Of a stretch of 64,000 bases of DNA, positions 45,866-49,125 are shown piece by piece; within the stretch, counting starts at the first letter, position 1; each line of letters starts with the position of its first letter. Under the pieces are notes generated by a model. It saw nothing but the letters and a program-made list of their open reading frames with translations. It made no database searches and had not been told where the DNA came from. The stretch comes from Vallicoccus soli (lineage in GTDB: Bacteria > Actinomycetota > Actinomycetes > Motilibacterales > Motilibacteraceae): NCBI RefSeq assembly GCF_003594885.1, contig NZ_QZEZ01000004.1, forward strand, positions 62,001 through 126,000, in the 5' to 3' direction. A program made the translations under genes and the position numbers.

Positions 45866-46203
45866 GCACCGCCCTCGACGTCCTCGCGGCCGTCCTGCTG
45901 ATCAGCGGGGCCGCGCTCGCGCTCGCCGCGTCGGTCGGCGTGCTGCGCTTCCCCGACGTCCTGTCGCGGATGCACGCCGCGACCAAGCCGCAGGTCCTGG
46001 GCATGCTCCTCGTCCTCGCCGGGGCCGCCGTGCGGCTGCGGACCAGCGTCGACGTCTGGATGCTCGTGCTGACCGGCGCCTTCCAGCTGATGACGGCGCC
46101 GGTCGCGGCCCACCTCGTCGGCCGCCTGGCCTACCGCACCCGGCACGTGCGCACCGACCTGCTCGTCTGCGACGAGCTGGCCGACGCGCCCGACCGGCCC
46201 TGA
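45862..46203 (+). CDS. mrpG: Mrp antiporter subunit G
   Basis: A 113-residue MrpG subunit, the last gene of the operon. It has three membrane helices with the conserved [20 protein letters not shown] block after the first, and [12 protein letters not shown]-like sequence ([13 protein letters not shown]) in the third. With it, all Mrp functions (A including B, C, D, E, F, G) are encoded in order, giving an active Na+/H+ antiporter for sodium and alkali tolerance. Confidence 0.95.
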
Positions 46204-46300
46204 CGGGGCCGCCCGGCAGCGCGGCAGCGGCACCGATGAGTACGGCCGCCGGCGCCGGTCCACCCCGGAGGACGACCGCAGGCCGGTGGAGGGAGCGGGC

Positions 46301-47416
46301 ATGGCACGCGTACGGGTGCTGGTGGGCACGCGCAAGGGGGCCTTCGTGCTGAGCGCGGACGGCACGCGGCGGGACTGGCGGGTGGAGGGCCCGCACTTCG
46401 CGGGCTGGGAGGTCTACCACGTCGCGGGGAGCCGGGCCGAGCCCGACCGGCTCTTCGCCTCGCAAAGCAGCGGCTGGTTCGGGCAGGTGGTGCAGCGCTC
46501 CGACGACGGCGGCGCGTCCTGGTCGCCGGTCGGCAGCGACTTCCGCTACGACGGCGAGCCGGGCACGCACCAGTGGTACGACGGCACCCAGCGGCCCTGG
46601 GCGTTCACGAGGGTGTGGCACCTCGAGCCCTCGGCCACCGACCCCGACCTGGTGCACGCCGGCGCCGAGGACGCCGCGCTCTTCCGCTCCACCGACGGCG
46701 GCGCGACGTGGTCGGAGCTGACGGGCCTGCGCACCCACCCCTCCGGCCCGTCCTGGCAGCCCGGCGCGGGCGGCATGTGCCTGCACACCGTCGCCCCGCA
46801 CCCCACCGACCCGCTGAGCATGCTCGTGGCCATCTCGGCGGCCGGCGTCTTCCGCACGGACGACGGCGGGGAGACCTGGCACCCCTCGAACACCGGCCTG
46901 TCCTCCGGGTCCATCCCCGACCCCGAGGCGGACGTCGGCCACTGCGTGCACCGCCTCTCGCGCCACCCCTCCCGCCCGGACACCGTCTACATGCAGAAGC
47001 ACTGGGACGTCATGCGCAGCGACGACGGCGGGCGCTCCTGGCGGGAGGTGTCCGGCGACCTGCCGTGCGACTTCGGCTTCCCGGTGCAGGTGCACGCCCA
47101 CGAACCCGAGACCGTGTACGTCGTCCCCATCACCTCCGACGAGCTGCACGTCCCGCCGGAGGGGCGCCTGCGCGTCTACCGCTCGCGCACCGGCGGCGAG
47201 GAGTGGGAGCCCCTGACGCGGGGCCTGCCGCAGGAGCACTGCTACGTCAACGTGCTGCGCGACGCCATGGCCGTCGACGAGCTCGACGGGTGTGGGGTCT
47301 ACTTCGGCACCACGGGCGGGCAGGTCTACTGCTCGCCCGACGGCGGCGACACCTGGGACGCGGTCGTCCGCGACCTGCCGCCGGTCCTGTCGGTGGAGGT
47401 GCAGACGCTGCCATGA
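46301..47416 (+). CDS. Asp-box (BNR) beta-propeller protein, VPS10/sialidase-like fold
   Basis: A 371-residue cytoplasmic protein without signal peptide. At least five Asp boxes (SxDxGxTW) are seen: [36 protein letters not shown] and CSPDGGDTW, with a degenerate RSRTGGEEW, indicating a six- or seven-bladed propeller. The sialidase catalytic Arg triad and Tyr/Glu pair are not recognisable, so the common label exo-sialidase is not supported. The N-terminus [13 protein letters not shown] and the segment [18 protein letters not shown] are characteristic of this subfamily. GGAGGGAG precedes the ATG. The stop overlaps the start of a MoaD/ThiS-like gene, so the two products are probably partners. 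Confidence 0.85.
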
Positions 47417-47727
47417 GCGACGGGACCACCGTGGTGACCGTCGTGCTGCCCGGGCACCTGCGCGCCCTCGCCCGGGTGGACGGCGACGTGCCGGTACGGG
47501 TCGAGGGCCCGGTCACCCAGGCGTCCGTGCTCGACGCCCTCGAGGCCCTGCACCCGGTGCTGCGCGGCCGGGTGCGCGACCAGGCGACGGGCCGCCGCCG
47601 CGCCTTCGTCCGCTTCTTCGCCTGTCAGGAGGACCTCTCGCACGAGCCCCCCGACGCCCCGCTGCCCGCCGACGTCGCCGAGGGGAAGCAGCCCTTCGTC
47701 GTCGTCGGCGCCATGGCCGGCGGGTAG
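47413..47727 (+). CDS. MoaD/ThiS-like ubiquitin-fold protein ending in Gly-Gly
   Basis: A 104-residue beta-grasp protein. It opens with [20 protein letters not shown], the first hairpin of the MoaD/ThiS fold, has the conserved [16 protein letters not shown] helix, and ends exactly in AMAGG, the C-terminal di-glycine used for adenylation and thiocarboxylate or conjugate formation. No E1 (MoeB/ThiF), MoaE or ThiG gene is adjacent, so a role in molybdopterin or thiamin synthesis is not supported. Its start lies in the stop of the Asp-box propeller gene. Confidence 0.88.
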
Positions 47728-47767
47728 CGCCCTCCGCGCACGACCACGGCGGTGCTGACCCCGCCGC

Positions 47768-47844
47768 GATCATGCACGACCTCGGCCGTGATCATGCACG
47801 ACCTCGGCCGTGATCATGCACGACCTCGGCCGTGATCACGCACG
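47768..47844. repeat. Three 22-bp tandem repeats plus partial copy between convergent genes
   Basis: The unit GATCATGCACGACCTCGGCC plus GT (22 bp) occurs at 47768-47789, 47790-47811 and 47812-47833, with a partial variant GATCACGCACG at 47834-47844. It contains the palindrome TGATCA, and CGTGATCACG at the end is a perfect 10-bp palindrome. It lies in the 129-bp gap between the convergent MoaD-like and E2 genes. No spacers, so not CRISPR. A transcription-ending or REP-like role is possible. Confidence 0.85.
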
Positions 47845-47856
47845 GGGTGGCGCTCC

Positions 47857-49125
47857 TCAGAGGTCGCCGAGGGCGGTGAGGGGGGACTCGACGCAGTCGG
47901 CGACGTAGCGCAGGAAGCCGCCGGCCGTGCCGCCGTCGCAGACGCGGTGGTCGAACGCCAGCGTCAGCTGGGTGACCGTGCGGACGGCGAGCTGCCCGTC
48001 CACGACCCAGGGCCGCTCGACGACGCGCCCCATGCCGAGGATCGCCACCTCGGGGTGGTTGATGATCGCGGCGGAGCCGTCGATGCCGAAGACGCCGTAG
48101 TTGTTGACGGTGAACGTGCCGCCGGTCAGGTCGGAGGGTGCGAGCGCGCCGGCGCGGGCCGCACGGGTGCGCTCGGCGAGGGCGGCGGCCAGCTCGCGCG
48201 TCGTGAGGCGGTGCGCGTCGCGGACGACCGGGACGACGAGGCCGCGGTCGGTCTGCGCGGCGAAGCCGAGGTGCACGTGGTGCGGGACGACGATCTCGTC
48301 CTCGGTGACCCGCCCGCCCAGCTCCGGGTAGCGCTTCAGCCCGAGCAGCGCGAACCGGGCGAGGAGCGTCAGCAGCCCGACCGGCTGCTCCGGCGCGCGG
48401 GCGGTGAGCGCCGCCTTGGCTGCGACCAGGTCGGTCGCGTCGACGTCCACCCACACCGTCGCCTCGGGGATCTCCCGGCGCGAGCGGCTGAGCTTCTCGG
48501 CGATCGCGCGCCGGGCGCCGCGCAGCGGCACGCGGGTGACGTCCTCGTCCGGGGTGGGCGCTGCGGGTACGGGCGCCGGCGCCGGCGTCGCGGCCGCAGC
48601 CCGCTCGGCCAGCGCCTTCTCGACGTCGGCGCGCCGGACGATGCCGTCGGGCCCGGTGCCGCGCAGCGACGCCAGGTCGAGGCCGGCGTCGCGGGCGATC
48701 CGACGCACCAGCGGCGACACGACCTGCACCCGCTCGGGCCAGCTCTCGACGGGCGCGGCCGGGGCGAGGGCGACCGGCTCCGGGCGCCGCCGGGACCTGC
48801 GCGCACGGCGCGGGGACGTCGCGGTGCCGTACCCGACGAGGACCGCCCCGCTCTCCACGCCCGGCTCCTGCACGCCCTGCCGCTCCGGCCGCTGCTCGCC
48901 GACGCTGACGAGCGGCGACCCGACGCCCAGGACAGCGCCTTCCTCCGCGTGCAGCGCGGTGACGACGCCGGCCCAGGGGACGGGCACCTCGACGACGGCC
49001 TTGGCGGTCTCGACCTCGGCGACGACCTGGTCGACCTCGACGGCGTCGCCGACGGCGACCCGCCAGCGCACCACCTCGGCGTCCTCGAGGCCCTCGCCGA
49101 GGTCGGGGAGGAGGAAGTCAGGCAC
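47857..49125 (-). CDS. bkdC: Branched-chain 2-oxoacid dehydrogenase E2 (dihydrolipoyl acyltransferase)
   Basis: A 422-residue acyltransferase. One lipoyl domain (lysine in VETAKAVVEVPVPWAG, near residue 42), a flexible Arg/Ala linker, a peripheral-subunit-binding domain (SPLVRRIARDAGLDLASLRG, about 135-170) and the catalytic domain with NNYGVFGIDGSAAIINHPE and the active-site FDHRVCDGG near the C-terminus. A single lipoyl domain is typical of BkdC. The GTG start overlaps the E1-beta stop by 8 bp. The E3 (lipoamide dehydrogenase) gene is not in this operon. Confidence 0.93.
   Translation of the reverse strand: MPDFLLPDLGEGLEDAEVVRWRVAVGDAVEVDQVVAEVETAKAVVEVPVPWAGVVTALHAEEGAVLGVGSPLVSVGEQRPERQGVQEPGVESGAVLVGYGTATSPRRARRSRRRPEPVALAPAAPVESWPERVQVVSPLVRRIARDAGLDLASLRGTGPDGIVRRADVEKALAERAAAATPAPAPVPAAPTPDEDVTRVPLRGARRAIAEKLSRSRREIPEATVWVDVDATDLVAAKAALTARAPEQPVGLLTLLARFALLGLKRYPELGGRVTEDEIVVPHHVHLGFAAQTDRGLVVPVVRDAHRLTTRELAAALAERTRAARAGALAPSDLTGGTFTVNNYGVFGIDGSAAIINHPEVAILGMGRVVERPWVVDGQLAVRTVTQLTLAFDHRVCDGGTAGGFLRYVADCVESPLTALGDL

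Follow-up and report, generated by a model that had tools for sequence, protein, structure and literature searches.

Introduction

What joins a gene that databases label a sialidase to a neighbouring gene for a ubiquitin-like protein (UBL) ending in Gly-Gly, and what might the two products do together? Known bacterial UBLs of the class in question are understood through their partners ThiG, MoaE and CysM. The locus described here presents a widespread UBL with a conserved partner of very different fold. It lies in a 64-kb stretch of DNA that was analysed as a whole (the window; G000:C4:62001-126000, from a genome of 4.04 Mb in 20 contigs), where its features read as follows:

46288..46295, + strand: Shine-Dalgarno-like GGAGGGAG, 5 nt ahead of the propeller ATG, read by eye
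46301..47416, + strand: Asp-box beta-propeller gene, coding for 371 aa from an ATG at 46301 to a stop with its last base at 47416
47413..47416, + strand: ATGA, shared by the end of the propeller gene and the beginning of the UBL gene
47413..47727, + strand: gene for the UBL (MoaD/ThiS/CysO class), coding for 104 aa from an ATG at 47413 to a stop with its last base at 47727
47719..47724, + strand: codons of the C-terminal Gly-Gly of the UBL, stop next

Plasmid records annotate the pair separately, as 'MoaD/ThiS family protein' and 'exo-alpha-sialidase', and five annotated plasmid propellers (L167-L171) carry the name 'exo-alpha-sialidase' or 'sialidase family protein'. We found no description of the pair among the titles and abstract openings listed from the open-access PMC literature, nor by word searches of PMC1779556, PMC1949818 and PMC2948915; the words propeller, sialidase, BNR and Asp-box are absent from the first of these. 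PA1356 of Pseudomonas aeruginosa looks like the propeller, judged by the N-terminus given in PMC6085387, where PA1356 is among the proteins assigned a possible Tat signal in silico. A passage of PMC11538994 credits PA1356 with roles in adhesion and biofilm formation, which were probably carried over from the sialidase name.

Results and discussion

The locus and its surroundings

A first reading of the window from its letters (the sequence-only reading) had described an overlap of the two genes by ATGA and a UBL whose last residues are exactly Gly-Gly. Both descriptions are exact: the overlap occupies 47413-47416, and the translated UBL reads ...AMAGG directly before the stop. Identified by eye, Mrp-antiporter-type genes lie upstream of the pair in the window, and a 2-oxo-acid dehydrogenase E2-type gene follows the UBL on the opposite strand; we know of no link of either type of gene to UBLs. 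In agreement with the same reading, no E1, MoaE or ThiG was seen beside the window pair. Neither a sigma-70-like promoter nor a terminator came out of a consensus scan of 45900-48000, which is weakly informative at high GC. The gap that separates the UBL stop from the convergent E2-type gene contains a 22-base unit (GCCGTGATCATGCACGACCTCG) repeated 3.7 times with 96% matches (47763-47844); a 38-base piece of this array is single copy in the genome, and the array could be local and regulatory or terminator-like.

A codon-usage script picked out 35 upstream genes that share the strand and lie within 400 bp; no Pfam family recurred more than twice among them, and the substrate is not named by any recurrent neighbour. 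Putative YCII/YciI (DGPF-type), ECF sigma factor and VOC genes, named partly by eye and memory, occurred near the pair at 9, 8 and 8 of 80 loci, respectively. All three are annotated near the pair on the P. aeruginosa plasmid pZYPA1927 (L171, 665-7643), and neighbours of these types also occur at L049, L056, L075, L094, L100, L106, L109 and L110. Shared regulation is possible; as a functional clue, such neighbours were too rare for a claim.

Fold and conservation of the propeller

The first gene encodes an Asp-box beta-propeller, as had been read from the sequence: repeated Asp-boxes and a predicted propeller fold are both present. Pfam returned BNR/Asp-box (E 1.7e-12) and Sortilin-Vps10, and the AF2 model (pLDDT 90.7, pTM 0.90) had PDB 3b7f as its best match by far (Z 50.3, rmsd 1.9, 354 aligned residues, 34% identity), followed by GH74 halves and other propellers at Z 29 or lower. 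We call the propeller seven-bladed on the blade count given for 3b7f in the table of a 2009 survey (PMC2716378), which, two years after the structure was solved in 2007, still entered its function there as 'Not known'. The sequence-only reading had also called the propeller cytoplasmic; inspected by eye, the N-terminus has neither a signal peptide nor a hydrophobic stretch, and from this we infer the location.

Conservation was assessed in 159 paired and 21 unpaired propellers, with a cut of at least 97% in both sets. Gly, Pro and Asp-box positions left aside, the residues kept in both include T10, K12, W106, W152, H162, S179, H217, Q232, H234 and R320. Placed by predicted strands rather than by coordinates, these residues appear to sit mostly in loops on the side opposite the Asp-boxes. 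Since the unpaired propellers keep the invariant residues of the paired ones, their core role would be independent of a neighbouring UBL, and the propeller may also work without a UBL of its own. Two candidate features were dropped: a conserved catalytic cysteine (C215), which gives way to Asp in 3B7F and in part of the upstream-type members, and a UBL docking patch of residues conserved in paired and lost in unpaired propellers, which came to seven weak positions with about nine effective unpaired sequences.

The active site of GH33 exo-sialidases has an arginine triad. Compared family-wide rather than in a single structure, the propellers keep only one arginine, R320, at 97% or above in both paired and unpaired sets, and the sialidase reading was rejected at family level; the sequence-only reading had remarked that the propeller lacks recognisable sialidase catalytic residues. 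GH74 xyloglucanases have two tandem propellers and a catalytic Asp pair. By its model, the window protein is a single propeller that resembles one GH74 half (Z about 29).

Fold and family of the UBL

Searched alone, the window UBL has no significant Pfam match and no NCBIfam match. Among its relatives, six of the 11 members of alignment A2 match PF02597 (ThiS), and the A2 profile finds CysO (3dwg_C) in the PDB at E 7.4e-17. The AF2 model (pLDDT 90.1) is closest in fold to SAMP1 (4hro_A; Z 12.3, rmsd 1.8), other matches being a Thermus MoaD-related protein and CysO (Z about 11), with SAMP1 and CysO almost tied; the last three residues fall below pLDDT 50, as expected for a mobile tail. The assignment to MoaD/ThiS follows from the profile of the relatives and the fold, and agrees with the MoaD/ThiS-type beta-grasp protein of the sequence-only reading. 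Together with the C-terminal Gly-Gly, the predicted beta-grasp fold and the relatives' profile are the marks of the MoaD/ThiS/CysO class.

Pairing across genomes

With the propeller alignment A1 as the sole query (E <= 1e-40), a search of 396 genomes from the phylum gave 92 matches in 91 genomes, and the flanks of all 92 were read. A UBL was adjacent or fused at 74 of the 90 judgeable propellers (L182 and L231 lie at contig ends), a count that leans towards relatives of the A1 seeds; the 11 propellers of A1 itself were found through their UBL, hence are paired by construction, and the later surveys used the propeller alone. The flanks read for the other 16 of the 90 held no UBL recognised by profiles that contain Gly-Gly. 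These 16 comprise all 11 propellers of family f19 (one genus, g21) and all five of f72; the pair is present in 22 of the 24 family codes having a propeller, and unpaired propellers are confined to the other two. The sequence-only reading had staked its case on the two genes being neighbours in related genomes, and so they are.

Of 586 confirmed matches in named genomes, we examined the best 80 (69-78% identical to the window propeller). A UBL follows the propeller on the same strand at 76 of these 80 loci, at a distance of no more than 244 bases apart from L069 (702 bases); two of the 76, L045 and L064, are truncated where the contig ends. At L046, L068 and L097 the contig runs out within 83 bases, too early for a decision, and at L091 no UBL was found within 6 kb. 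The taxa among these 80 include Actinomycetota, the Acidobacteriota isolates Edaphobacter aggregans, Granulicella and Acidipila rosea, and Chloroflexota (Oscillochloris); Planctomycetota, Gemmatimonadota, Rokubacteria, Verrucomicrobiota and others are represented by bins only. As metagenome bins are possibly contaminated, the isolates carry the weight of the taxonomic spread. Propeller identity between phyla is about 70-75%.

Fifteen plasmid matches were obtained, and of the eight that were opened, four have a UBL and four do not. In the former, which are Pseudomonadota plasmids or megaplasmids of Mitsuaria, P. aeruginosa, Cupriavidus and Burkholderia (L170, L171, L172, L174), the UBL is upstream of the propeller, an order found also in one clade of the window's own phylum. 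In the latter, three Rhodobacterales and one Streptomyces plasmid propellers, no UBL was found within 4 kb on either side. In 13 genomes the two proteins form one chain, UBL-GG-linker-propeller, in which the linker varies in length and the Gly-Gly is always kept (the UBL start of fusion L191 is lost at a contig end).

In a set of 164 distinct propellers from mixed sources, with identical proteins counted once, 118 have the UBL downstream, 17 have it upstream, 12 carry it as a fusion and 17 lack it; five of these last are not secure (contig ends at L045, L046, L068 and L097; a truncated propeller at L182). In 61 of the 118 UBL-downstream loci the match to the UBL profile begins at -1, an overlap of the window's type; this is a lower bound because such a match may begin past the real start of the gene, which happens in the window too. 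Identity thinning left 97 of 180 propellers for a tree, built by a quick IQ-TREE search, on which gene order changes once, the absence of a UBL needs at least five changes, and fusion needs five, of which the starred branches force only one. Within the window-type group, propeller and UBL distances correlate (r 0.64, n=102; the maximum of 1000 permutations was 0.20).

Judged from gene content and order, then, the pair has stayed together in different phyla, whichever gene comes first, and also as natural fusions. Chance adjacency is ruled out by the pairing at 74 of 90 phylum and 76 of 80 named-genome propellers, and the conservation census leaves chance neighbours or an annotation artefact with next to no probability. 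Because adjacency is conserved, the order was reversed once, fusions occur naturally and the Gly-Gly is kept, we regard the partnership that the sequence-only reading had suggested as well supported by these genomic comparisons. Against a simple obligate pair stand the 16 UBL-less propellers and the invariant residues kept in the unpaired ones. Conserved pairing in many unrelated soil bacteria points to a shared and seemingly unstudied job.

The Gly-Gly end

All 145 readable UBLs of the mixed set have kept the Gly-Gly, a count made with profiles that could miss UBLs lacking it; conservation of this end in propeller-paired orthologues, the other point on which the sequence-only reading had hung its case, thus held. 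It is exactly C-terminal in 119 (two of which, L075 and L162, end in GGG), followed by 1-25 extra residues in 14, and fused in 12. Another 13 paired loci gave seven exact ends, five ends with 1-5 extra residues and one fusion. Tails after Gly-Gly were seen at L072, L074, L084, L155, L157, L163, L166, L176, L177, L178, L180, L181, L185 and L186. Nine of the 14 tailed UBLs belong to loci with the UBL before the propeller, and in 9 of the 17 upstream-type UBLs the Gly-Gly is not C-terminal. Fused and tailed UBLs would need processing before activation by an E1. Trimming may be usual in this phylum, since two of its CysO-like UBLs (L204, L206) also carry 5-6 residues after Gly-Gly; L204 adjoins JAMM and cysteine synthase genes, and L206 was assigned by the same layout. 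Tails past Gly-Gly also occur on the CysO- and thrC-linked UBLs L197, L204, L205 and L206.

E1, JAMM and other UBLs

The window's own genome has one ThiF-family gene, MoeZ by NCBIfam (718 bits against a cut-off of 647), on another contig than the pair, and five Gly-Gly UBLs in all. The four others, which likewise end in Gly-Gly, are a ThiS-like UBL (L033), CysO (L034), L035 and a MoaD-like UBL (L036); CysO is flanked by genes for a cysteine synthase and a JAMM protein on a contig other than that of the pair. The single MoaE match of the genome lies at G000:C1:836160. L035 adjoins the threonine synthase gene thrC, and thrC-adjoining Gly-Gly UBLs (L196, L197, L198) occur in the genomes of three unpaired propellers. 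MoeZR is reported to sulfurate MoaD1, MoaD2 and CysO (PMC3227635). The suggestion in the sequence-only reading that the system borrows a distant E1 is plausible, with one candidate E1 for five UBLs; that MoeZ activates this UBL we infer.

In the examined flanks of 129 propeller loci we found no E1 or JAMM with one query each, verified on known copies, from which distant families could escape. Genome-wide counts were taken in 80 of 93 genomes, six propeller and seven propeller-less genomes having been dropped. ThiF-family genes were present in 78 of the 80 (65 of 67 with a propeller, 13 of 13 without), and since such an E1 is near-universal its presence proves nothing. In two paired drafts, G250 and G357 (completeness 94 and 96%), no E1 was matched, and paired G348 yielded only a fragment below the cut-off. 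A JAMM-family gene was present in 65 of 67 propeller genomes and in 3 of 13 without a propeller, a difference that lineage confounds; no JAMM match came from the paired genomes G006 and G050, where Gly-Gly is the very end of the UBL. JAMM as a required processor was tried and rejected: it is present in 19 of 19 genomes with fused or tailed UBLs but also in those 65 of 67 propeller genomes, with the same confounding by lineage.

Each of seven unpaired-propeller genomes searched has at least two other UBLs. The ten of these with ends read all have Gly-Gly, six exactly at the C-terminus, and all three checked for thrC lie beside it. Such UBLs might serve the unpaired propellers in trans.

A proposed module and its alternatives

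We tentatively favour, with somewhat less than even confidence, a two-protein module in which a sulfur carrier of the CysO/SAMP1 class is activated by MoeZ and acts with a dedicated propeller partner. A protease, possibly JAMM, would first cut fused or extended forms past Gly-Gly. MoeZ, a general E1/rhodanese, would then adenylate the C-terminal glycine and convert it to a thiocarboxylate, as for CysO and MoaD. In the least certain steps, the propeller would dock the UBL tail at the face bearing the invariant residues (T10 to R320, as listed above) and spend the activated sulfur on a bound substrate, thus playing the role of MoaE, ThiG and CysM toward their own UBLs. Activation by MoeZ and action on or through the propeller are proposed by analogy with UBLs encoded beside the enzyme that uses them; in the same genome, CysO and another UBL have cysteine synthase and threonine synthase as such neighbours.

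The UBL might instead be a non-covalent subunit that regulates or folds the propeller, its Gly-Gly tail held in a groove and no E1 involved. Where Gly-Gly is not C-terminal, as in the 13 fusions and 9 of the 17 upstream-type UBLs, no processing would then be called for, and the lack of an E1 beside the pair fits; we nevertheless think this rather unlikely, as Gly-Gly is exactly C-terminal in 119 of 145 readable UBLs, the four other UBLs of the genome end likewise, and Gly-Gly stays in the fusions even as linker lengths differ. Somewhat less likely still is a protein modifier, conjugated to lysines like SAMP1/Urm1, with the propeller as target, target-selecting receptor or remover. Its case draws on SAMP1 (4hro_A) as the closest fold at Z 12.3 and on the JAMM-family gene in 65 of 67 propeller genomes tested, but the SAMP1 and CysO folds are almost tied, neither E1 nor JAMM was found near the pair in 129 loci, JAMM adjoins a CysO-like UBL and cysteine synthase where examined (L034 in the own genome; L204), and the paired genomes G006 and G050 gave no JAMM match.

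A self-sufficient propeller enzyme, for example a hydrolase, with the UBL as an accessory in a horizontally moving cassette, is to us the least probable of these three. It would account for the invariant residues retained by unpaired propellers; identity of about 70-75% across phyla suggests transfer, and the at least five tree changes to the unpaired state imply repeated uncoupling. Pairing, however, persists through order reversal and fusions, and unpaired propellers are limited to two of the 24 family codes in the phylum sample.

The sulfur-carrier module, if extended to a pathway common to many phyla, would have an E1-activated, thiocarboxylated UBL give sulfur to a substrate held on the propeller, with the UBL-GG-propeller precursor of one clade cut like MoaX. 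We consider this wider claim more doubtful, roughly a one-in-three prospect; if true, thiocarboxylated UBL and propeller would together make up a sulfur-transfer enzyme of a new class. Any activation of the UBL would bring sulfur-carrier or modifier systems a new class of partner, and at the least a misleading 'exo-alpha-sialidase' label is corrected, including that in P. aeruginosa.

Comparison with known systems

GH33 exo-alpha-sialidases and GH74 enzymes share the Asp-box propeller and differ in that one arginine (R320) is invariant in the present family; sialidases in the table of PMC2716378 have six blades, against seven for 3b7f. PDB 3B7F itself, which is Reut_B4987 (YP_299179.1), shares the fold over 354 residues at 34% identity and Z 50.3, and has Asp in place of C215. 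SAMP1, of the SAMP1/Urm1 systems, is the closest solved fold to the UBL by Z; here the likeness is one of fold only, and E1 and JAMM were not found beside the pair.

In the CysO-CysM-Mec system, as here, a CysO-like beta-grasp UBL with a Gly-Gly end is encoded beside its partner and the E1 (MoeZ-type) elsewhere. The partner here is an Asp-box propeller rather than a PLP enzyme; no cysteine synthase was seen by eye among the window neighbours, JAMM was not found beside the pair at the 129 loci, and the genome has a separate JAMM-CysO-cysteine synthase set. Molybdopterin synthase likewise joins a UBL to a partner, and MoaD-MoaE/MoaX, too, includes UBL-GG-partner fusions that retain Gly-Gly; the propeller, however, is unrelated to MoaE, and the genome has a separate MoaE and the MoaD-like L036. 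Fusions of ThiS and MoaD to ThiG and MoaE, and many UBL operons, are reported in sections of PMC1779556. According to PMC4326299, an unidentified protease cleaves MoaX behind Gly82 and activity requires this cleavage; a JAMM cleaves DRMoaD-MoaE of D. radiodurans, according to PMC8832034. The 13 fusions found here have the layout of MoaX (MoaD-GG-MoaE), with a putative cleavage and a propeller in the place of MoaE.
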